Origin: a virus
Length of the DNA stretch: 35,307 nucleotides
Reading direction: 5' to 3' (one strand)
Virus record (IMG/VR): IMGVR_UViG_3300010939_000060
Location: 1 to 35,307 of that record
The translations under genes were made by a program, and so were the position numbers. The notes under the pieces were generated by a model, which saw only the letters and a program-made list of their open reading frames with translations, was not told where the DNA came from and searched no databases. Of this stretch, positions 896-34,222 are shown piece after piece. Numbering within the stretch: the stretch's first letter is position 1; each line of letters begins with the position of its first letter.

Positions 896-1960
896 TTAAA
901 TCTCGGTTGCCCAGGGCGGGAACATGGCATCATCAAAATATTCAATCGGCTCATGCTGGACCCAGGGCGCGGTTCTGAAAGTCCGCCAATAATTATCAAA
1001 GCGGGTCATGGCGGCATCAATGCTGGTTTCCCCGCAGTTGAACATTGATTGCTGTGGAAAAATCCGGGGCAATACCAGCGGGGCCGGACCCTTTTGCTGG
1101 AAGATAAAAATGAACTTCATTTCATGGTCGTCACCAAAAATTTTATCAGTAAATTCCTGTTGTTCTTTGGTGCCGTCCGTTGAAAGTGGCCCTAGTTTCC
1201 TGAGTTCATTGATGGCCCGCAAATAAAGTGTGCCTTGGATATGATACCGGCGTTTGGCCATTTCAGTGTAAACAGCATTTTCCATAGGACGCTCGGTTGC
1301 GGCCATTGTCTTCAGTTCAGCAATCATCATGGGCTTGAGATAATCAAAGCGCACCTTAAACGGGATGCCGGCATCCGGGTCATACCAGAAGGCACTGACT
1401 TCTGAAAACCCGCCCCGGAAGCATTTGGATACATCCTCATGAATTTCAATCAGGCTGGCGGCGAAGTCCAGTTCTTCAATTTCATCCGGCTCCATAAAGC
1501 CTTCAGCATTTTCATTCGCCCGGTAAAATTCAGCCTTGGCATCTTCAACAAACCGACATTCAACATCAGCCTCAAGGATGCGTTGCTTCAGGACCGGCTT
1601 GGTGCCGCTGACCGCAAGGTCCAATTCTCGGCACCGCTCTTTATAATCTTCCTGGGTGTTCAGGGCCTCGGGGAAATCGTCCGGGTTGAAGTTCACCGGG
1701 AAGCGCCGGTTAAATTCATCACGGCCTTCCAAAATCAAACAGTGATATGCCTTGCCGATGCGCTGATGTTCACGGTCCTCTTGTTCCGAGCGGTCAATGT
1801 TCAGCCAGCTTTCCGCCCAAAATAAAAGCGGGTTGCCCATCAGTTTTTTGACGCCTGATGCTGATAGCGCGGGCACCGCAAGATAATCCTCAAAGGATTG
1901 GTTGAAATAAATTCCAGGCGCAACACCCATATCAAAAAGTGGCTCAGTCATTTTTAACAT
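896..1960 (-). CDS. RecE/exonuclease VIII-like PD-(D/E)XK nuclease
   Basis: This 354-residue protein matches the exodeoxyribonuclease VIII C-terminal, PDDEXK-like family. It opens with GIYFNQSFEDY...ALSASGVKKL (residues 16-40) and has a conserved-looking H73 in RIGKAYHCLIL. The likely metal-binding core is E187 (GFSEVSAFW), D206 (VRFDYLKP) and E215-x-K217 (IAELKT), followed by Q242/Y246 in YHIQGTLYLRAI. By family, such enzymes resect duplex DNA 5'-3' and hand 3' tails to a RecT annealing protein; a RecT gene is present at 33383-34222. The gene is transcribed leftward from the divergent promoter at 1974-2021. A second methionine (MTEPLF, start 1951) is a possible alternative start. The last 23 residues recur identically at 35237-35307. 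Confidence 0.85.
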   Translation of the reverse strand: MLKMTEPLFDMGVAPGIYFNQSFEDYLAVPALSASGVKKLMGNPLLFWAESWLNIDRSEQEDREHQRIGKAYHCLILEGRDEFNRRFPVNFNPDDFPEALNTQEDYKERCRELDLAVSGTKPVLKQRILEADVECRFVEDAKAEFYRANENAEGFMEPDEIEELDFAASLIEIHEDVSKCFRGGFSEVSAFWYDPDAGIPFKVRFDYLKPMMIAELKTMAATERPMENAVYTEMAKRRYHIQGTLYLRAINELRKLGPLSTDGTKEQQEFTDKIFGDDHEMKFIFIFQQKGPAPLVLPRIFPQQSMFNCGETSIDAAMTRFDNYWRTFRTAPWVQHEPIEYFDDAMFPPWATEI

Positions 1961-8627: not shown

Positions 8628-9263
8628 ATGACCAAGCCGTCCGCAAAGCAGGCACCGAAAGGAAAGCCCAAATTCAAAGGACGCCCCAAGCCCAAATTCA
8701 AAGGACGCCCCAAGCCCAAATTCAAAGGACGCCCCAAGCCCAAATCCAAAGGACGCCCCAAGCCCAAATCCAAAGGACGCCCCAAGCCCAAATCCAAAGG
8801 ACGCCCGACCAAGTACACCCCGGCGATTGCACGGAAGATACTGGCCCGCCTTGCTGATGGTCACGGGCTTAAAACTATTTGCCGGGATGACACGAAACTT
8901 CCACCTGCAACAACAATCAGGGGATGGTATATTGATGACCGGCCAAAGGGCTTTTACGTCCGATACGCACACGCGCGCGAGTTGGGGGCACATGCGATGG
9001 CTGATGAAATTAATGAAATTGCCGATGACGGGCGGCAGGATTATGCTATTTTTAAAACCGCCAGCGGCAAAACAATAATCCGGTTTGACCAAGAGCGTGT
9101 CCAGCGGTCCAGGTTGCGAATTGATGCCCGGAAATGGTTGACATCCAAAATCCTGCCCAAAATTTTTGGCGACAAAATTGATTTGGATGGTCAACTGGAA
9201 ATCAAAATGGTGATTGATGCCGATGATGCCGCCACGATTTCAAAAAACTATAAAGCAGACTGA
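8628..9263 (+). CDS. terS: Terminase small subunit with AT-hook-like repeats
   Basis: This is a 211-residue protein. From residue 59 (GRPTKYTPAIARKILARLADG...KTICRDD...TTIRGWYIDD) it has the HTH of Sf6 gp1-like small terminases, followed by ARELGAHAMADEINEIADD and RLRIDARKWLTSKILPKIFGDK, typical of that family. The subunit recognises the packaging site on phage DNA and recruits the large subunit. The N-terminus (residues 13-60) is unusual: six tandem octapeptides KPK(F/S)KGRP, encoded by a perfect 24-bp tandem repeat (8664-8807). Each repeat carries a GRP core flanked by lysines, like an AT hook. The gene overlaps the large terminase by about 50 bases. Confidence 0.85.
   Translation: MTKPSAKQAPKGKPKFKGRPKPKFKGRPKPKFKGRPKPKSKGRPKPKSKGRPKPKSKGRPTKYTPAIARKILARLADGHGLKTICRDDTKLPPATTIRGWYIDDRPKGFYVRYAHARELGAHAMADEINEIADDGRQDYAIFKTASGKTIIRFDQERVQRSRLRIDARKWLTSKILPKIFGDKIDLDGQLEIKMVIDADDAATISKNYKAD
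8664..8807 (+). repeat. 24-bp tandem repeat, six units
   Basis: Six head-to-tail 24-bp units lie within the terS frame. Units 1-3 carry AAATTCAAAGGACGCCCC and units 4-6 carry AAATCCAAAGGACGCCC; they differ at one position (TTC or TCC, encoding F or S). Near-identity implies recent expansion, and the copy number is expected to vary between isolates. Confidence 0.95.
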
Positions 9264-10485
9264 TGCCACCCGCTTGATTGCCAGGTATATGTTCATCCTG
9301 CTTTACGGCGGGTCACGGTCCGGTAAAACTTTCCTTCATTTGCGGGACATTGTAATCCGCGCCGCCGCCGTCAAGTCCCGGCACCTGGTGGCACGGCATC
9401 ATTTCAACCATATCAAGCAATCAATCGTTTATGATACCTTTCCCAAAGTGATGACGCTGTGCTTTCCTGGCGTGCCCTATCACGTCAATAAGACGGACTG
9501 GTTTGCCGAACTGTCCAACGGGTCGCAAATTTGGTTCATGGGCCTGGACGATAAAGAGCGGGTTGAAAAAATATTGGGCAATGAATACAGCACGATTTTT
9601 CTGAACGAGGTTTCCGAAATCACCTGGATGGCGGCTGAAATTGTTATGACCAGGCTGGCGGAAAATGTTGGCTTGGATTTGAAAATGCTGTTTGACTGCA
9701 ATCCGCCGTCAATTAAACACTGGATTTATTCAATTTTCTTTGAGGGCCTTTTACCAGGGACAAAAGAACCCTTAAGGAACCCGCATCTATATGGGAAAAT
9801 GCAGATTAACCCGCCTGATAATCTGGCAAACCTGACCCCCGAATTTATTGAAATTCTAAAAAGCCTGCCGCGTGCCGCCCGCGCCCGGTTCTTTGCCGGT
9901 GAGTTCCAGCGGATTGTTGAAGGTGCATTGTGGACCTGGGAGGATATTGACAAGGCCCGGATGCTGAACCCGCCCAAGGAAATGGACCGGATTGTTGTGG
10001 CGGTTGACCCGCCGGTCACGTCCGGCCCGGATGCTGACGAGTGCGGCATCATTGTGGCCGGGGCACATGGCCAGGGCACCGGACGCCATGCGTTCATTTT
10101 GCAGGATTGTTCCTTGCAGGGTTCACCCTTGACATGGGGCAATAAGGTGCTTAGGGCCTACAATATTTTTCTGGCTGACCGGGTGGTGGCTGAGGTCAAC
10201 CAGGGGGGCGACCTGGTGGAAACCAATTTGCGGAACATTCAAAATAATGTTAGTTATAAATCCGTTCATGCCACAAAAGGGAAAATGACCCGCGCTGAAC
10301 CAGTCGCCGCCTTGTATGAATTGGGCAGGGTCCACCATATCGGCACCTTGTCAGGGCTTGAAGACCAGCTTATTTCATATGTCCCTGGGGTCACGAAAAA
10401 AAGCCCGGACAGAATGGATGCGCTGGTGTGGGCAATCACTGAATTGGTCCTTAGTGGCAAACAAGGCGATTGGGATTTAATCTGA
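9214..10485 (+). CDS. terL: Terminase large subunit
   Basis: This 423-residue protein is the packaging motor ATPase and headful/cos nuclease. Walker A is GGSRSGKT (residues 32-39). The Walker B region is STIFLNE (126-132), with N131 where most families have D. A coupling motif FDCNPPS lies at 160-166. The RNase H-like nuclease domain shows VAVDPP (D264) and DRMDALVWA (D398, D401). It matches PBSX/T4-like phage terminases. The listed start is a TTG; the ATG at 9217 is an equally good choice. It is translated from inside the end of terS and ends in a TGATG junction with the portal gene. Confidence 0.9.
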   Translation: MMPMMPPRFQKTIKQTDATRLIARYMFILLYGGSRSGKTFLHLRDIVIRAAAVKSRHLVARHHFNHIKQSIVYDTFPKVMTLCFPGVPYHVNKTDWFAELSNGSQIWFMGLDDKERVEKILGNEYSTIFLNEVSEITWMAAEIVMTRLAENVGLDLKMLFDCNPPSIKHWIYSIFFEGLLPGTKEPLRNPHLYGKMQINPPDNLANLTPEFIEILKSLPRAARARFFAGEFQRIVEGALWTWEDIDKARMLNPPKEMDRIVVAVDPPVTSGPDADECGIIVAGAHGQGTGRHAFILQDCSLQGSPLTWGNKVLRAYNIFLADRVVAEVNQGGDLVETNLRNIQNNVSYKSVHATKGKMTRAEPVAALYELGRVHHIGTLSGLEDQLISYVPGVTKKSPDRMDALVWAITELVLSGKQGDWDLI

Positions 10486-12506
10486 TGTTGAAAAAAATAT
10501 TCGGCGGACTTTTTGGGAGTGAAGCGCAAGGCAACTTCTTTTTTTCGCCAGTCGGCGATAACACCACCCCGACAATTTTCACCCAACGTCAACTTGTCCT
10601 GGGTTATCACCGATACAAATGGCTCAACGCCGTGGTCAACAAGACCGCTGAAATCGGTGCGGCGGTTCCCTGGTTAGTGACAGTCGATGGTGAGGAAATT
10701 GAGGACCATCCCTTTGCCAATGCCATGAATAACGGCAATGAAGTTTTTCCTGGCCTTCAAAACTGGTTGCTGGCGTGGAAATATTTTTGTATTTTGGATG
10801 AATTTCATTTCCTGAAGGAACGCAATTTCCGGGGCGACACAATTTCCTTCTGGCCTATTCCGACCCACGAAATCCTGAAGCGGCCGATACTTGGCAAGGG
10901 CACCTGGCAGGTCCGTATCGGGGCCACCATGTTCAGCTTTGAGCCTGAAGACATCATTGCGGTTGTCAATCCAGACCCGGCCAATCCCTACGGCCCAGGC
11001 AAGGGACGCGGCGCGGCGCTGGCGGATGACCTTGAAACTGATAGCTATGCCACACGCTATATCAAGAACTTTTTCCGCAACAGCGCCCGGCCTGATTTGC
11101 TGATTTCAGCGGCGGACAGTGAAAGCGGGTTTGGCAAGGACCAGGCTGAACGGCTTGAGAAAAAATGGCTTCAAAAACTGCATGGCGTGGCGCGGGCATC
11201 GGTGCCGTTCTTTGTCACTGGCGGCAAGATTGACGTGAAGGAATTTGCCAAGGACTTCCGCAAGATGGCGATGAAGGACATCAGGGGGATGTCACGGGAC
11301 GCGGTGCTTCAGGTCTATGGCTTCCCGCCCGAAGCCCTGGGCATCCTTGAGAACAGCAACCGGGCCACGATCGAAGCCGCCGAGTTCTTTTTATCCAAGC
11401 ATGTGGTCCTGCCCAAACTGATTGTAATGCGTGCGGTCTTTGAACGTGAATTGCACGAGCAGGACCCACGCGCCAAATTGGGGTTCATCAGCCCGGTCAA
11501 GGAAGACATGAAGACCAAAATTGAGTTGATGAAATCACGGCCAGAAGCCTTCAGGCTGAATGAGGTCCGCAAGGCCGCCGGTGAGGAAGTGCTTGAGGGG
11601 CTGAACGTGTTCCCGGTGCCGTTCAATCTGAACATCACAGGCAATCCGGCAACCCCTGGGCTGGAAGAACTTGCTGGATTGCGTGCGCCACAGTTATTTT
11701 TCAGGGAAAGCAAAAATGGCCCGGTGCTGATAGATGGCACGTTCAAGGAAATCACCAAGGCACCCGATGACATTGATGATATTCTTGCCGCGATTGACGC
11801 TAACAGCCCAGGCCCGGCAACGGTCGGGATTGTATCCGATACCGTGGCCGCGTTCGGGGATGACCTGTTCCGGTCCTTGAACCTGGATATTGTTTTTGAT
11901 TTGAATGACCCGGCTGTGGTGCGGTTCTTGCGGGACTATTCCAGCACCCGTGTGGTCGGCGTCAACGGCACCATCAAGGAAGGTTTGCGGCGCACCCTGG
12001 CTGAAGGACTGGCGGCGGGGGACAGTCTTCCGGCGCTTTCAACACGGGTCACACAGGTCTTTGACGCCAGCATTTCACGGGCGGGCACCATCGCCCGGAC
12101 CGAAACCGTCAGAGCGTCCAGCTTTGGGGTGCAGGAAGGGATGGTCAAGGCCGGGGTGAAAAAGAAAATGTGGCTGATTACGGTCGGCGGGTCGCCGGTG
12201 CGGGACACGCATGTTGCATTATCCGGCGTGACCATTCCGGTTGAAAACAATTTTGTCAGTGCCGGGGGGGCCAGCGCCCCAGGGCCGGGACAATTCGGGG
12301 TGCCCGGGGAGGACATTAACTGCCAGTGCGGCGTGGTCCCTGTGGTCCCGGCCAATCTTGCCCGTCTGGATACAGAAGAAAAGCGTGCTGAAGTGTGGCG
12401 GGTGTTTGAAAACAGGCGGCAACAGTTTGAACGCCAGTTGCGCCGCGCCTTCAGGCGGTCCTTCCGGGCCATGCACGCTGATGTGCTGGCGATTGTGCAG
12501 GGCTGA
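10485..12506 (+). CDS. Portal protein fused to MuF-like head protein
   Basis: This 673-residue protein is about 1.5 times the length of a usual HK97-type portal. The N-terminal ~380 residues (MLKKIFGGLFG...YKWLNAVVNKTAEIGAAVPW...RGMSRDAVLQVYGFPPEALGI...) are a portal of the HK97 family, the ring through which DNA passes. The C-terminal ~200 residues match phage Mu F: ARTETVRASSFGVQEG, then PVRDTHVALSGVTIPV, then PGEDINCQCGVVPV, where R/D-x-x-H and NCxC are family hallmarks. The two are usually separate neighbouring genes, so this is a gene fusion. The start is set by the TGATG overlap with terL. Confidence 0.85.
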   Translation: MLKKIFGGLFGSEAQGNFFFSPVGDNTTPTIFTQRQLVLGYHRYKWLNAVVNKTAEIGAAVPWLVTVDGEEIEDHPFANAMNNGNEVFPGLQNWLLAWKYFCILDEFHFLKERNFRGDTISFWPIPTHEILKRPILGKGTWQVRIGATMFSFEPEDIIAVVNPDPANPYGPGKGRGAALADDLETDSYATRYIKNFFRNSARPDLLISAADSESGFGKDQAERLEKKWLQKLHGVARASVPFFVTGGKIDVKEFAKDFRKMAMKDIRGMSRDAVLQVYGFPPEALGILENSNRATIEAAEFFLSKHVVLPKLIVMRAVFERELHEQDPRAKLGFISPVKEDMKTKIELMKSRPEAFRLNEVRKAAGEEVLEGLNVFPVPFNLNITGNPATPGLEELAGLRAPQLFFRESKNGPVLIDGTFKEITKAPDDIDDILAAIDANSPGPATVGIVSDTVAAFGDDLFRSLNLDIVFDLNDPAVVRFLRDYSSTRVVGVNGTIKEGLRRTLAEGLAAGDSLPALSTRVTQVFDASISRAGTIARTETVRASSFGVQEGMVKAGVKKKMWLITVGGSPVRDTHVALSGVTIPVENNFVSAGGASAPGPGQFGVPGEDINCQCGVVPVVPANLARLDTEEKRAEVWRVFENRRQQFERQLRRAFRRSFRAMHADVLAIVQG

Positions 12507-12544
12507 TAAAGGATAAGACATTGAAAACATTAAAGAAAGGCGGG

Positions 12545-12592
12545 ATGTTTCACGTGAAACATTTTGCAAATCAAGATAAGGAAAGACCATGA
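12545..12592 (+). CDS. Mini-ORF overlapping parS
   Basis: This 15-codon frame (MFHVKHFANQDKERP) has a good ribosome binding site (AAAGAAAGGCGGG) and ends in an ATGA overlap with the next frame. Its first codons are simply the parS sequence read as protein. It may only maintain ribosome passage through the gap; a functional peptide is unproven. Confidence 0.25.
   Translation: MFHVKHFANQDKERP
12546..12561. promoter_or_regulatory. parS: parS-type ParB binding site
   Basis: TGTTTCACGTGAAACA is a perfect 16-bp palindrome identical to the canonical bacterial chromosomal parS consensus, which is bound by ParB/Spo0J and used for origin segregation. The exact word is expected by chance about once in 4 billion bases. 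No parA or parB gene is visible in the window, so any binding protein would come from the host. Confidence 0.85.
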
Positions 12593-12756
12593 GCATAACC
12601 CTGTGGAAAACCTGTGTATTGGCTGTGGATAAATTGATTTTTAAAAAATTATCCCGGTTAATCACAAACAATTCACAGAGTTATCAACCTGGCGTGTTTG
12701 GTTTGAAACACCTAAATATAGTGGTGCGTTTAAAGTTTGGACGCAAAATGTTGTAG
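12589..12756 (+). CDS. Possible small ORF through the DnaA boxes
   Basis: This 55-codon frame (MSITLWKTCVLAVDKLIFKKL...) is preceded by AAGGAAAGACC. It covers most of the DnaA-box cluster, and the corresponding segment at 2584 uses another reading frame for the shared DNA words, which argues that DNA sequence, not protein, is conserved. Coding status is doubtful. Confidence 0.25.
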   Translation: MSITLWKTCVLAVDKLIFKKLSRLITNNSQSYQPGVFGLKHLNIVVRLKFGRKML

Positions 12757-12854
12757 CTGGCCGTACTGCGACATTAGTTATCCACAGCACCAACATCATC
12801 AACCCTTTAAATATAAATTATGAAGATGATGAGAGTAATAACAAAGGAAAGGCC
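12589..12854. repeat. DnaA-box-rich repeat, copy 2
   Basis: This is the partner of 2584-2856. Perfect DnaA boxes TTATCCACA lie at 12778-12786 (plus) and 12624-12632 (minus, read as TGTGGATAA). TGTGGAAAA at 12602-12610 is one mismatch away, and TTATCAACC at 12681-12689 two. The end of the element (AGTTATCCACAG, ACCAACA, TTTAAATATAAAT) closely parallels copy 1. An inverted repeat GTGTTT/AAACAC lies around 12694-12711. Confidence 0.7.
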
Positions 12855-13964
12855 ATGACAAAATTTCTTTATTCAAGCGACCTGAAAAGCGACACCATCA
12901 TGACGCCCAAGGGGGCAATGCTTATCAAGCAATATGCTGAACCCGGTTATATTCGGGGCATTGACCAGGACAAGCGGACCGTTGACTTCATTATTTCCAC
13001 TGGCGATGTTGACCGGGATGGCGATACCATCAGTGTCAAGGGTTGGGAGTTGACCCACTTCAAAAAGAACCCGGTGGTGTTATGGGCGCATGACCATCGC
13101 ATCCCGGCAATCGCCCAGGCCCGGCAGGTCAAGGTCCAGGGCGGCAAACTGGTCAGCCTGGCCACGAAATTCACTGAAAAGGATGAACATGAATTTGGCT
13201 TCATGACGTTTAAATTGCTGGCTGGCGGTTTTCTGAACACCACATCGGTTGGATTTGTTTCCAGGCGCCATGAGCACAATAATGACCGGGGCGGGATTGA
13301 TTTCATTGAGCAGGAACTGCTGGAATTTTCCCTGGTCAACGTACCGTCGAACCCGGAAGCCTTAATCCAGGCGCGGGCCAAGGGCATTGACCTGAAGCCG
13401 ATGAATGAATGGGCGCGGCGCACGCTGGATGAATGGAAGACCGTGAAAAATGACCTGCCCATTTCCCGGCATCAGGTTGAACTGGTACGGAAAAACACCC
13501 TGGAAGGCGAAGTCACCTACACCTTTGGCACCAAAAAACTGGCCGGTGAAGTCATGGACCATGTGAAAAAAGACCTGGACAGCTTTGAGGATGAATGGCT
13601 TGAAAAATTGAAAACCAAGGTGCTGGAAGTAGTCAAGTCACAGCGCGGCATCATTGCTGACGAAGGCGGACCGTTGCCTTTTTTCCCTATGCCTGAGAAA
13701 AAAACAAAGCCGAAAAAAGCCCCGACACTTGCTGACCTGATGGCTGAAGTCCGGGGGTTTAAAAAACAACTCGACGCCGTGATGCTGGAAGTCAGGGAAA
13801 GCAATGAGGGGCAAGAGGAGTTGCAAGATTTGGTCGCCCGTGCTATGGCAAATCTCAAGGTGCCGCACGGTGCCGCAAAATCCAAGAGCGTACAGATGCC
13901 AACTCAGGCGGAAATCACAACCGTTGTTTTAAACGCTGTGAAAGACGCCATGAAGAAAGCATAA
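12855..13964 (+). CDS. Prohead maturation protease
   Basis: This 369-residue protein is the serine protease that cleaves scaffold and capsid N-terminal segments during head maturation. The HK97/U35-type domain covers about residues 30-175: H79 in VLWAHDHRIP, S131 in NTTSVGF, and ELLEFSLVNVPSNPEAL at 154-170. The charged C-terminal part (about 200-369) is probably an elongated helical region and may contribute scaffolding. The start follows ACAAAGGAAAGGCC, after the origin-like gap. It precedes the capsid gene, as in HK97-like phages. Confidence 0.9.
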   Translation: MTKFLYSSDLKSDTIMTPKGAMLIKQYAEPGYIRGIDQDKRTVDFIISTGDVDRDGDTISVKGWELTHFKKNPVVLWAHDHRIPAIAQARQVKVQGGKLVSLATKFTEKDEHEFGFMTFKLLAGGFLNTTSVGFVSRRHEHNNDRGGIDFIEQELLEFSLVNVPSNPEALIQARAKGIDLKPMNEWARRTLDEWKTVKNDLPISRHQVELVRKNTLEGEVTYTFGTKKLAGEVMDHVKKDLDSFEDEWLEKLKTKVLEVVKSQRGIIADEGGPLPFFPMPEKKTKPKKAPTLADLMAEVRGFKKQLDAVMLEVRESNEGQEELQDLVARAMANLKVPHGAAKSKSVQMPTQAEITTVVLNAVKDAMKKA

Positions 13965-13996: not shown

Positions 13997-15415
13997 ATGA
14001 AAATTCTGGAAAGGCTTAAAGCCGTACTTGCCAAATTACAGGCGGACGTTGACAAGCTTGGTGATGCGGCAACGGATGAACAAACCGAAAAACTGAAGGG
14101 TCTTAAGGCGGACATCACCGAACTTGAGGCAATCTCAGCGGCCAAACCTAAGACCGATGAAGCCGATGGCAAGAAAAAACCAATGGTCAAAACAACTCCG
14201 GCCGATGATTTTGACGCCGAAAAGTTCATGACGGACCTGAAGAAAACCGTCAAGGACACGGTTGATGATGCCGTAAAAGAAAAAGGCTTCACCGACAAAA
14301 ACATTGCCGTTCTCAAGGGCGGTGTTTCCAAGGCCGAGGTTGAAAAGTTCAATGACATCGGGAAGGAAAGTGAGGAAGACCAGGCAAAAACACGCTTTGG
14401 CAAATTGCTGGCGGTTCATGTCATGCACAAATTCAATCCCTATGGCGCATCTTATTTCATTGAAAATATCAGCGATGAAAAGCTGAAGGACAGCCTGGAA
14501 AAATCTTTGTTGTCCACTGTCTTTGATGCCGGCGGGTCAACAGTCCGTGAAGATATGGCGGAAGAAATCATTGACCTGTTGCGTCCGGCCAGTGTTGTCC
14601 GGCGTGCCGGTCCGCGCATGGTTACAATTCCGCGCGGCAATTTCGGCATGGACAAGCTGACCGCCGGTGCGACCGCGACTTGGGGTGAGGAAGGCACTAA
14701 CACCAATGCGTCACAGCAAAAAACTGGTCAAATCAAACTGGTGGCGCACAAGCTGACGGTCATCATCCCTGTCACCAATGAACTGTTGCGCTATACCTCT
14801 GGCAAGGCCATGCAGTTGGCTCAGAATGACGCACTTCGCATCATGGGCACGACAGAAGATGTGGCGTTCCTGCGCGGCTCTGGCACGCTGTCACAGCCCA
14901 AGGGGATGCGGAACCATGCGCTTGCTGGCAACGTATTCGCCACGGCTGGCGCAACTGCCGCCAATGTTGAAAGTGATGTCAACATCATGATTACCAATCT
15001 GGAAGGCAAAGACATCGGGATGGTCAAACCCGCCTGGTTTGGCGTGCCCCGTTCGCGTGGCAACATCGGTGCCTTGCGTGAGGCCGCTGGCGGCAACCGG
15101 GTCTTCCCCGAAATGCGCGGGTCAACCCCGTTGCTTGAAGGACATCCCTGGTGGAGCACCAACAACATCCCCTCAAATCTTGGGGGCGGGTCCAATGAAA
15201 CCGAAATCTTGCTGGCCGATATGGAAGACCAGTTGATTGCGAATGTTGATGAAATCACGCTTGCCGTGGTGGATGGTGCCGCTTATCTCGACAGCACCGG
15301 AACATTGCTGTCCGGGTTCAGCCGGAATGAAACTGTCATCCGCATGGTCCTGCACGTTGATTTTGCCACTTTGCACAGCGAAAGCATCAGCGTCATGACC
15401 GGCGTGACCTATTAA
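13997..15415 (+). CDS. Major capsid protein (HK97 fold)
   Basis: This is a 472-residue protein. Residues 1 to about 125 form a charged coiled-coil delta (scaffold) domain (LERLKAVLAKLQADVDKLG...). The shell-forming domain starts around 170 with STVFDAGGSTVREDMAEEIIDLLRP and continues PRMVTIPRGNFGMDKL, ATWGEEGTNTNASQQKTGQIKL and LRGSGTLSQPKGM, all characteristic of HK97-type capsid proteins. Cleavage by the upstream protease probably removes the delta domain; the site is not evident. GAAAGGAAAAATCAA is the ribosome binding site. Confidence 0.92.
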   Translation: MKILERLKAVLAKLQADVDKLGDAATDEQTEKLKGLKADITELEAISAAKPKTDEADGKKKPMVKTTPADDFDAEKFMTDLKKTVKDTVDDAVKEKGFTDKNIAVLKGGVSKAEVEKFNDIGKESEEDQAKTRFGKLLAVHVMHKFNPYGASYFIENISDEKLKDSLEKSLLSTVFDAGGSTVREDMAEEIIDLLRPASVVRRAGPRMVTIPRGNFGMDKLTAGATATWGEEGTNTNASQQKTGQIKLVAHKLTVIIPVTNELLRYTSGKAMQLAQNDALRIMGTTEDVAFLRGSGTLSQPKGMRNHALAGNVFATAGATAANVESDVNIMITNLEGKDIGMVKPAWFGVPRSRGNIGALREAAGGNRVFPEMRGSTPLLEGHPWWSTNNIPSNLGGGSNETEILLADMEDQLIANVDEITLAVVDGAAYLDSTGTLLSGFSRNETVIRMVLHVDFATLHSESISVMTGVTY

Positions 15416-19896: not shown

Positions 19897-22603
19897 TACA
19901 AATCTTGGTGACGCACTGGTTGAAATCCGGGCCGACTTGGCCCTGATGCGCGCCGACATGAAAAAAGCCAGGGGCATTTTCAGCACCAGCGTCAAACAAA
20001 TTTCCACCAGGATGAAAGCGGCGGGACGGGCCATGTCAATCGCCCTGACCGCGCCCATCATCGCGGCGGGATTTGCCTTTGTTAAATCAGCGACAAAATT
20101 TGAAACATCATTGTCCCGTATCCAGGGGCTTGTTGGTCGGTCCGCTGAGGAAGTCCGGGGCTATGAACAGGCAATCATCGCCCTTGGCCCGGCGGTCGCC
20201 CAGGGACCAAACGTGCTGGCGGAAGCGATGTTCTTCATCACGTCCGCTGGCCTGGAAGGGGCGGCGGCCCTGGAAGCCCTGGAAGCGTCAGCAAAGGCCG
20301 CATCAGCCGGATTGGGGTCGGTGGTATCCGTAGCCGATGCGGTCACGTCAGCGGTCAATGCGTTCCAAGGCCAGATGCTATCCGCCAGTGATGCGGCTGG
20401 TATCTTGGTCGCCACGGTACGGGAAGGCAAGGCGGCGGCCGACAGTATCGGTGCGGCGATTGGGCGCGTCACGGGCATTGCCGCCGCCCTGGGGGCTACC
20501 TTCAATGATATTGGGGCCATTATCGCCCTGCTAACCCGTACCGGCTCCACGGCTGAGGAAGCTGGCACCACCATTGGCGCATTTTTCAACACGCTTGTCC
20601 AGGGGGCCAAGGAGGGTAGCGACCAGGCTGACGCCCTTGATGAAGTCGGGTTATCTTTTGAACAATTGCGGGATGTCATCAAGGGGCCGGAAGGCACCCT
20701 GGGCGTATTACAACTCTTGGCTGAGGCGTTCAAGGGGAATGAAATTGCCCTGGGCAAGGTCTTCCCCAATGTCCGGGCGTTGCGCGGCCTGTTGCAATTA
20801 GTGGGCGACCGGGCGGCTGAGACTGAGACAGTTTTCAAGAGCCTGGCCAATGCCACGGCGGTTGACCTGAATGATGCTTTTGCCGTGGCCGCGCAAACCG
20901 CTGAGTTCAAATTCAATGCCCGGATGGCGGAAATGCAAACCCTGATGAACCAGATTGGCAAGGATGTCTTGCCGATTGTGCTTGAAGGCATAAAATCGCT
21001 TGGCCAGGTGTTGCGGGACGCATCACGCTCTTGGGCCGAAATGAACGATGAAGCAAAACAATCCACGTTTAAAATGTTGGCGCTGACGGCGGCAATCGGC
21101 CCGTTGCTTTTGGTGGTCGGCAGTTTGCTTGGGATTGTAGTCCGCTTGGTGGCCGTCTTCGGTTTTTTACGGGTGGCTTTAGCGGCGCATCCGCTTTTAC
21201 TTGTGGCGGGTATTCTTATCGGGGTCTTCACGGTGATGGCAACCCTGCGTGAAAAAACTGATTTGGCAACCGAGGCATACGAAAGATATCGGGACATTCT
21301 TGATGAAGTAAATGCCCGGCTGGAAAAAATAAAAACCTTGACCGGAGAACTTAAAACTGAGGAAGAAAAATTAACTCAAGCCGTGATTGCTGAAACCCGC
21401 GCTGAAGTTTTGCGGGAAAAAGTCAGGCTGGAAAGCGAACTGGCGGCGGTGCGGGCCAGGGAAAAAAGGGAGAGCGGCAGGGCCGGGCCGCTTGGTGTTA
21501 CTGCCGGTTTGATAGCGGCACAGTCGGAAGCAGCGCGGCTGGAACGGCGGATTGAAGGGCTGGTCCGGGCGCTTGCCGATTTGAACCTTGCGGAGGGGGC
21601 AATTGCCATTGGGTCAATCATGGCGAAAATGGCGGTGATGGCGGAAACGACAAAGGATGCCGTTGATAAAATTGATGACCTTGGTGATGGTGTAATTGAA
21701 TTATCCGATGACTTGGTGGAATTACTGGAGCGGCTCAATCCTGCTGAAGCGCGGATGAAAACCTTCAAAGCGGAAGTGGCATTGTTGAAAGAAGTGCTAG
21801 CAGTAAACGGGCTTCCCGAATATACCGAACAGCTTCAACTTTTGGTTGCCGAATTTATTGAGGGTGAAAAAGAAGCGTCCGGGTTCAACACGCGGATGGC
21901 CCAGGCGAAGGCGGTTTTCACCGCCACCCGAACCCCGCTGGAACAGTTCAATATTGCTTTTGCCGAACTGATAGCGCTGGCCAAAGAGTTTCCTGAAATC
22001 ATCAACGCGGAAACTTTTCAACGCGCCCTGGGGGGTTTGCGGGAAACTTTGGCGGGCGCGACAAAAGGCATCCTGACGGACGCACAGAAAGCCTTGAAAC
22101 AAACTATCCTTGGTGTGTCACGGCTTGTGGGCCGGACCATTGTGGACATCGCCACCGGCGTCAAGGGCGTGCTTGAGGGCTTGAAGGATTTGGCCAAGTC
22201 GATTGCTGATTTTATTCTGCAACGCATCATTTTTGCCCTGATTGACGCAGGGCTTACATTTGCTTTCCCTGGTCTGTTCGGGTCAGCGCAAGGCAATGTC
22301 TTCAGCGGCGGCAAGCCGGTGCCGTTCGCCAAGGGCGGGATTGTTACCGGCCCCACGGTTTTCCCGTTGGCAAGCATAGCTGAAAAAGGACCGGAAGCGA
22401 TTGTCCCGCTGAAGCGCGACAGCGCGGGCAACCTGGGCATCGCCGCTATCGGCGGTGGTGGTGGCGGGTTTACACAGAACCTTGAAATGAACTTCACCAG
22501 CGATGTGAAAAAAAGCACACGGGAAGAAATCCTGAACCTGTTACCGTTGATTGTCCAGGCCACCACGGTTGCAATCGAAAACCGGAACAACCGGAAACGG
22601 TGA
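19886..22603 (+). CDS. Tail tape measure protein
   Basis: This 905-residue protein is the tail length ruler. The N-terminal ~350 residues match the phage tape-measure core (AGRAMSIALTAPIIAAGFAF, then FETSLSRIQGLVGRS and DAFAVAAQTAEFKFN). Hydrophobic segments follow at about 400-450 (LALTAAIGPLLLVVGSLLGIV, LLLVAGILIGVFTVMA), then coiled-coil regions. The C-terminus PFAKGGIVTGPTVFPLASIAEKGPEAIVPL is the conserved end motif. The gene overlaps the chaperone gene by 11 bases. Family length per residue predicts a tail of roughly 135 nm, as an inference. Confidence 0.92.
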   Translation: MPVDTNLGDALVEIRADLALMRADMKKARGIFSTSVKQISTRMKAAGRAMSIALTAPIIAAGFAFVKSATKFETSLSRIQGLVGRSAEEVRGYEQAIIALGPAVAQGPNVLAEAMFFITSAGLEGAAALEALEASAKAASAGLGSVVSVADAVTSAVNAFQGQMLSASDAAGILVATVREGKAAADSIGAAIGRVTGIAAALGATFNDIGAIIALLTRTGSTAEEAGTTIGAFFNTLVQGAKEGSDQADALDEVGLSFEQLRDVIKGPEGTLGVLQLLAEAFKGNEIALGKVFPNVRALRGLLQLVGDRAAETETVFKSLANATAVDLNDAFAVAAQTAEFKFNARMAEMQTLMNQIGKDVLPIVLEGIKSLGQVLRDASRSWAEMNDEAKQSTFKMLALTAAIGPLLLVVGSLLGIVVRLVAVFGFLRVALAAHPLLLVAGILIGVFTVMATLREKTDLATEAYERYRDILDEVNARLEKIKTLTGELKTEEEKLTQAVIAETRAEVLREKVRLESELAAVRAREKRESGRAGPLGVTAGLIAAQSEAARLERRIEGLVRALADLNLAEGAIAIGSIMAKMAVMAETTKDAVDKIDDLGDGVIELSDDLVELLERLNPAEARMKTFKAEVALLKEVLAVNGLPEYTEQLQLLVAEFIEGEKEASGFNTRMAQAKAVFTATRTPLEQFNIAFAELIALAKEFPEIINAETFQRALGGLRETLAGATKGILTDAQKALKQTILGVSRLVGRTIVDIATGVKGVLEGLKDLAKSIADFILQRIIFALIDAGLTFAFPGLFGSAQGNVFSGGKPVPFAKGGIVTGPTVFPLASIAEKGPEAIVPLKRDSAGNLGIAAIGGGGGGFTQNLEMNFTSDVKKSTREEILNLLPLIVQATTVAIENRNNRKR

Positions 22604-33035: not shown

Positions 33036-33386
33036 TTACGGTGTCAAACCAAAGCTGTTGGGATAATGGCCAGCATAATCCAAACCCTTATCTTTCAGCC
33101 ATTGCGTCAATTCCGGCACGTGGCCCGTGCCAAACCGGCCCTTGAAATATTCCATGTGTCTGTCCATGAAGTGCGCCGGGATATAATACACCGCAAAATA
33201 AGCCCCGGTTACTGGAAACCTGGCCTTGGTCGCATAAATTTTCAAACCCTTCAAGCGCAGGTCTTCCACAATGGCTGACAGCCGCATGGTATGAAATTGG
33301 CTGGCGGCTTCAAGCGGGGTCAGGGCATAGCCTTCAGACAAGTGCTTCCTGACCTGTGCAGTTTTTTTCCGGTCCATGTTTTTCAT
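33036..33386 (-). CDS. Winged-helix HTH protein
   Basis: This is a 116-residue protein. Residues about 10-50 (QVRKHLSEGYALTPLEAASQFHTMRLSAIVEDLRLKGLKI) match the phage winged-helix module (HTH_55-like: a start L-x-x-G-x-x-L/I-T-P-x-E-A, then R-x-S-x-x-I-x-x-L-R-x-x-G). The remainder (ARFPVTGAYFAVYYIP...) is of unknown role. It overlaps the RecT gene by four bases, so it is expressed with it. Possibly a DNA-binding accessory to recombination or a regulator. Confidence 0.7.
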   Translation of the reverse strand: MKNMDRKKTAQVRKHLSEGYALTPLEAASQFHTMRLSAIVEDLRLKGLKIYATKARFPVTGAYFAVYYIPAHFMDRHMEYFKGRFGTGHVPELTQWLKDKGLDYAGHYPNSFGLTP

Positions 33387-34222
33387 CCTCTTTTTTCTGG
33401 CAATTCATCATCCTCAAGGACTTCCTCAATCAGGTCCTTTTCGGGTTCAGGTGATACCCAGGTGTCACCTTCGGATGTTTTGGTCTCAGCATCGCCAGCG
33501 GGAATTTCATTAGCCTCACCCTCGATAACATCACCAAGAAATTTTGTGTCCTTGACGGTTTTCTTTTCAGGGATGCCTTCCAGTTCTTCCCTGATAGCCA
33601 GCCCGCAAAGCACATCAGCAAAAAGGTCACGGACGCACCAGGCGCGGGCACGGTTGAATAGCATCCGGTTGATATAATTCCAGGCAAACTTGCCAGCCTT
33701 GGGAGTGCCGTCCCGGTTAATCAATCCGGCGTGGGTTGCGTCCGCCATTGAAAAGGTCCGGGTGATTGAGTTGTCAACCGTGCGCCGCTTCATGGTGACG
33801 GAACACATCAAATCCCCCTTTTCAAATGACCCTTCATAGTGGTCATTCATAAATTCCAACTCGCCGGTATCATGAACTAGGGCCATTGCCGCGTCCCCCC
33901 AAATTGTTGGCCGTGCTTTGACAATATAAATATTGGCCAGGGCAGTCATCGGCATCAGCCCAACTTCCAAGCCCTTCAGGATGGCCATTGCAACTTTGTT
34001 CCGGTCATTCTCAAAACTATCAGGGGCAAGGCAGGCGGTTATAACAGCATCCGCAAATCGGTAAACCTGTTCAATGGTGTGTGGAACAATAGCTTCAACT
34101 TTCCCCCCGGCTTTCAACCTGGCCTGGGGCTTTCCTTTCTTCAGGTTTTCTTTCTTGGTACCGGGGGCTTCAGCCGGTGCGGGGGCATCAACTTTTTCAG
34201 GTGTGGTGTTCATCTTATTCAT
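33383..34222 (-). CDS. recT: RecT-family single-strand annealing protein
   Basis: This is a 279-residue protein. The core at residues about 45-215 has NDRNKVAMAILKGLEVGLMPMTALANIYIVKARPTIWGDAAMALV, then MKRRTVDNSITRTFSMADATHAGL and WNYINRMLFNRARAWCVRDLFADVLCGL, matching RecT-like annealing proteins. The N-terminal ~40 residues and the acidic C-terminus are low-complexity. With the exonuclease at 896-1960 it forms a RecE/RecT-type recombination pair for phage DNA repair or concatemer formation. A sigma70-like promoter lies just upstream. Confidence 0.85.
   Translation of the reverse strand: MNKMNTTPEKVDAPAPAEAPGTKKENLKKGKPQARLKAGGKVEAIVPHTIEQVYRFADAVITACLAPDSFENDRNKVAMAILKGLEVGLMPMTALANIYIVKARPTIWGDAAMALVHDTGELEFMNDHYEGSFEKGDLMCSVTMKRRTVDNSITRTFSMADATHAGLINRDGTPKAGKFAWNYINRMLFNRARAWCVRDLFADVLCGLAIREELEGIPEKKTVKDTKFLGDVIEGEANEIPAGDAETKTSEGDTWVSPEPEKDLIEEVLEDDELPEKRG

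Follow-up and report, generated by a model that had tools for sequence, protein, structure and literature searches.

Extrachromosomal actinobacteriophages, P1 and N15 encode their own ParA and ParB together with their own sites. In bacteria, ParB is a CTP clamp which loads at parS and then spreads, acting with ParA, and it also recruits SMC (PMC12704722, PMC5815017). In Caulobacter, competition between a parS-bearing plasmid and the chromosome can prove lethal, and additional chromosomal parS sites are tolerated best near the origin or terminus (PMC5815017). Use of host ParB by a phage is known from phi29, whose chromosome is entrapped in spores by host Spo0J (ParB), according to the account in PMC9437464 (citing Meijer et al. 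2005). In the part of the literature covered (that other than subscription papers and preprints), we found no description of a wide occurrence of bare parS in phages or of such a case outside spore formers.

The DNA analysed here (the window) is the whole 35,307-nucleotide stretch of IMG/VR virus record IMGVR_UViG_3300010939_000060. Motif search of these 35.3 kb located an exact match to the 16-bp palindromic core of canonical chromosomal-type parS (TGTTTCACGTGAAACA) at 12546-12561, as reported in the initial annotation, and this is the only match to the 16-mer in the window even when up to three mismatches are allowed. It is enclosed by the longest perfect palindrome of the window:

12545-12562, no strand: 18-bp perfect palindrome ATGTTTCACGTGAAACAT, enclosing the canonical 16-bp parS core (12546-12561)

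While canonical parS is usually present as two or more sites near a chromosomal origin, the window has just one exact site, and this is on phage DNA. The chance expectation for the 16-mer in 35.3 kb is 0.8 × 10⁻⁵ (from base composition) to 1.8 × 10⁻⁵ (first-order Markov), so the earlier estimate of about 1 in 100,000 was right. Some other DNA-binding proteins recognise CACGTG cores, and the word might be the site of one of these or have arisen by chance. Either is very improbable, given an expectation of the order of 10⁻⁵ and the fact that a control palindrome of the same composition (TACAAAGTGCACTTTGTA) had no match in 50,697 phage records searched with the same settings. It is well supported that the word is a real host-type parS and not a product of chance.

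When matches of at least 16 exact bases were counted, the 18-mer was found in 315 of the 50,697 phage records, at 924 strand-counted places (462 sites); these 315 records, in 29 organism-name groups, include many near duplicates, and independent events are fewer. Groups with the word include phages of Listeria, Microbacterium, Arthrobacter, Gordonia, Ruegeria, Lactobacillus and Butyrivibrio, Microviridae and the phi29-like Bacillus phages, of which B103 and Goe1 carry the 18-mer. The single-stranded Microviridae and Spiroplasma phage 4 carry it too (records M17988.1, MG945524.1, HQ264138.1 and others). Enterobacterial phages were absent among the matches listed, and there was no match in 5,426 E. 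coli genomes (28 Gb, prophages and plasmids included), a size at which only full 18-base matches pass the E-value limit; E. coli is without a ParB homologue (PMC5815017).

At least 120 IMG/VR stretches also match the parS word. The exact word occurs at 62 sites in 48 large IMG/VR records, compared with none for the reversed control word in the large records. Most of these 48 contigs are genuine phages, since a terminase large subunit was matched in 34 of them (two PHROGs; 35 counting the window), and ParB_N had no match in 44 and a match in four (three above cut-off). The parS word is a real phage feature, recurring far above chance, and hundreds of phage records with bare parS suggest that borrowing of host segregation proteins may be widespread among phages.

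In the window, the palindrome lies within a head operon with the order TerS-TerL-portal/MuF-protease-MCP:

8628-9263, plus strand: terminase small subunit
9214-10485, plus strand: terminase large subunit, approximately 2.1 kb upstream of parS
10470-12506, plus strand: portal protein fused to a MuF-type head morphogenesis protein, upstream neighbour of the parS gap
12507-12854, no strand: A+T-rich stretch holding parS (348 bp; 36.5% G+C vs 50.8% in the whole window)
12855-13964, plus strand: prohead maturation protease, downstream neighbour of the parS gap
13997-15415, plus strand: HK97-type major capsid protein

The gap, described in the initial annotation as an interruption of a tightly packed operon, is indeed the longest between called genes of the window. 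The same source had placed it between the portal and protease genes; the protease is downstream as stated, but upstream the portal is encoded as a fusion with MuF rather than alone. Absence of par genes held on searching Pfam and/or PHROGs: ParA, ParB, Rep and integrase were not recognised in approximately 67 ORFs (the PHROGs scan of 57 proteins being read from the first 25 of 38 families listed), and no parA and parB lie beside the site.

On a modest balance of probability, the palindrome is a functional ParB-loading site, using host ParB in trans to position or segregate the phage genome. During infection or carriage, host ParB-CTP clamps would load onto phage DNA at parS and slide into the flanking head genes, bringing host ParA and SMC condensin to phage DNA, and the phage genome would be positioned and segregated like the host origin region. 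The cost to the phage would be 16 bp, with no recognised partition protein to encode. Borrowing of host ParB had been proposed in the initial annotation, and what stands of this is a host-type parS on a phage with no recognisable ParB; binding of ParB to this phage is what the sequence leads us to expect, and as to its purpose, we infer that the benefit is positioning or segregation rather than interference or regulation. A role in stable segregation is less easily reconciled with the presence of parS in lytic phages, in Microviridae and in a Spiroplasma phage.

The ends of the record bear on how the phage is carried. Positions 1-105 of the window encode, on the minus strand, the beginning of UvrB (PDB match, E 1e-5) and are high in G+C, and across 1-440 the UvrB N-terminus is followed by an intergenic-looking repeat (gtcatcctgagcgagccccgagtgtcacgagggcgagtcgaaggacctc). 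The left end is probably bacterial chromosome, which would make the record one edge of an integrated prophage, or give it a chimeric end. With host uvrB at the left end, it is likely that the sampled copy was integrated as a prophage, which counts against a purely plasmid lifestyle; the co-segregating extrachromosomal element offered earlier as one purpose of the site is weakened by this fragment, although not refuted. As the right prophage edge would be beyond the record, the integrase could lie outside it. Two recombination genes are also placed near the ends:

896-1960, minus strand: exonuclease VIII
33383-34222, minus strand: RecT

These two genes usually adjoin each other; here one is near each end of the record, an arrangement that would fit an integration point between them. 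Circular permutation of the contig, considered for the same arrangement, was dropped because the left end starts in uvrB. An integrated copy also counts against the ParB-loading interpretation, as an extra parS is of less benefit there and could be costly to the host (PMC5815017).

Replicating phage genomes bearing parS could instead titrate host ParB, ParA or SMC, stalling segregation or division to the advantage of the phage. A strong parS on phage DNA would be expected to have a marked effect, whether as a centromere or in disturbing the host, judging from Caulobacter, where a parS plasmid, by competing with the chromosome, cuts viability up to approximately 1000-fold (PMC5815017); furthermore, sites are found in lytic phages, sometimes in several copies. 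Such a decoy is nevertheless unlikely here, since a single site in an apparently integrated phage would be a poor one and arrays would be expected more often than they occur, with only 10 of the 48 large IMG/VR contigs having more than one site (two or three).

Another possible function, rated as slightly less probable again, is regulation, ParB spreading from the site so as to silence or insulate the head operon and keep late gene expression low in the prophage or at an early stage of infection. The site is indeed flanked by head genes, and in Caulobacter the spreading of ParB extends over as much as approximately 2 kb (PMC5815017). In one large IMG/VR group, the word is just 5' of the terminase gene, within approximately 150 bp of its 5' end, in about 15 contigs; as these were collected by the exact word, its perfection there reflects selection of the sample, while its recurring position does not. 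The terminases of this group are diverged (L025, L033, L035, L048, L072, L094, L099, L103, L107, L117, L125, L126 and others). Sites are also modestly over-represented at distances of up to 3 kb from terminase (13 of 35 records vs 7.5 expected, P ~0.02). What tells against regulation is that sites elsewhere are in varied places: 82 of 147 phage sites are inside called ORFs and the others between ORFs, and neighbours include tail, lysis and hypothetical genes.

Arthrobacter phages provide a view of how such sites change over time. Around their MuF-protease gene, exact or one-mismatch sites are present in Pureglobe5, MellowYellow, Ranunculus and BruhMoment, at several different places, and there are none in SilentRX, AWGoat, Rizwana and Tank (loci with sites, L146, L161, L162 and L165; sister loci without, L163, L164, L166 and L167). 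Within 4 kb, some Arthrobacter phage genomes have two or three copies, exact or with one mismatch. These phages gain and lose parS repeatedly around the MuF-protease gene, and turnover with repeated gain argues for selection. In an unrelated high-G+C, actinophage-like contig (L030, contig range 17910-22060), exact sites are at 21144, 21667 and 22255, parS being found both in the interval that separates MuF from protease and within the protease gene, which reads the word as VSRET. It is suggestive that sites share a position close to the MuF-protease junction, but this may reflect no more than a tolerance of insertion by the linkers and gaps there.

Several further elements were recognised in the 348-bp gap of the window:

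12545-12592, plus strand: possible 15-codon leader ORF (MFHVKHFANQDKERP), starting inside parS; putative
12589-12756, plus strand: possible 55-aa ORF with a AAGGAAAG-type ribosome-binding site; putative
12602-12610, minus strand: DnaA-box-like TTTTCCACA, one mismatch
12624-12632, minus strand: perfect DnaA box TTATCCACA, contributing, with the box at 12778, to an 11-bp inverted repeat
12695-12710, no strand: degenerate parS-like palindrome TGTTTGGTTTGAAACA, 12 of 16 positions
12778-12786, plus strand: perfect DnaA box TTATCCACA, forming part of the 11-bp inverted repeat with the box at 12624

The two perfect DnaA boxes are the only ones in the whole window, and two in the gap were reached in none of 2000 Markov simulations of the gap. 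As in a DnaA-dependent origin, the boxes are clustered in A+T-rich DNA. The gap may be a composite of origin and centromere, a weaker reading than that of ParB loading; because the boxes were noticed after looking, the origin is a lead only. Across phages in general, no association between parS and DnaA boxes was found (3 observed vs 2.0 expected). A repeat, AAGGAAAGNCCATGA, is present at 12578 and 12844. It was considered as an insertion scar, but need not be one because AAGGAAAG-type ribosome-binding sites recur across the phage, and it is more simply the usual ribosome-binding site. No RNA families or tRNAs were found.

The degenerate palindrome at 12695-12710 is possibly a decayed second parS site. 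Together with the resemblance of parts of the gap to an origin region, it would fit neutral capture, in which the A+T-rich gap is a piece of a bacterial origin region that brought parS and DnaA boxes with it and now has no function. Copying from an alphaproteobacterial oriC is unsupported, however, as the parS-to-DnaA-box spacing occurred in only 1 of 385 alphaproteobacterial genomes searched, and the gap region had no match among the phage or plasmid records searched. Moreover, a perfect 18-bp palindrome in otherwise unrecognisable DNA and the recurrence of the word across phages suggest selection, and we regard neutral capture as improbable.

Close relatives, sought by portal, protease, terminase and DNA, were not found, and the nearest sequences, reached via the head genes, have 23 to 52% protein identity. 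These distant relatives comprise 12 viral loci (via portal-MuF and protease) and seven bacterial loci (via protease), the latter from uncultured Acetobacteraceae, Rhodospirillales, Hyphomicrobiales and Mesorhizobium. Exact parS was present in none of the 12 viral and seven alphaproteobacterial loci, and in most of them the protease gene abuts or overlaps the gene before it, compared with the 348-bp gap here. As far as can be seen, the site is specific to the lineage of the window. Retention of the flanking genes without the site, the pattern which the initial annotation held would speak against its interpretation, is seen in distant relatives only. Their lack of the site, as well as the presence of just one perfect site in the window, weighs against the ParB-loading interpretation, but absence from any one relative says little because of the turnover seen in Arthrobacter phages.

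The likely host family, judged from the proviral protease relatives, is the Acetobacteraceae. In the family of one Acetobacteraceae genome, the exact 16-mer was present in 78 of 150 genomes, and in two inspected genomes of the group it is found at the mnmG-rsmG-parA junction as a pair 37 bp apart. The comparison with the parS of the likely host, called for in the initial annotation, therefore gave the same word, that of the chromosomal parS of Acetobacteraceae; if the host belongs to this family, the site is that of its own ParB. A host search from the uvrB flank gave only short matches (best 74% over 100 bp), which pointed to no particular host.

Overall, a borrowed centromere is preferred, followed in order by interference, regulation, neutral capture and chance. 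A broader proposal, which we put forward tentatively and consider doubtful as a whole, is that bare parS is a general phage strategy for exploiting host ParB-ParA-SMC in non-sporulating hosts, gained repeatedly and often in the packaging or head region, and here joined to DnaA boxes as a host-driven origin and centromere, with the phage carried on host proteins alone. If host ParB does load on phage DNA, bacterial centromere machinery would be a common phage target outside spore formers, and positioning, segregation or protection of phage genomes by host proteins would become testable. It would also account for the many phages which have such sites but no par genes, and provide a simple sequence mark for picking phages to study.

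Compared with bacterial chromosomal parS (mnmG-rsmG-parA), the window has the identical 16-bp word, but as one exact site on phage DNA, without parAB and outside the mnmG-rsmG-parA locus. With the parABS cassettes of extrachromosomal actinobacteriophages, P1 and N15 it shares a centromere site on phage DNA; those phages code for ParA, ParB and sites of their own, whereas no ParA or ParB was recognised in the window. The closest likeness is in reliance on a host segregation protein, as described for phi29 and Spo0J: a host-type parS lies on a phage with no recognised ParB of its own, and the phi29-like B103 and Goe1 have the same 18-mer. The difference is that phi29 is entrapped in spores, while the proviral protease relatives of the window phage are alphaproteobacterial. 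Alphaproteobacteria form no endospores, so the benefit to this phage would differ from that to phi29.
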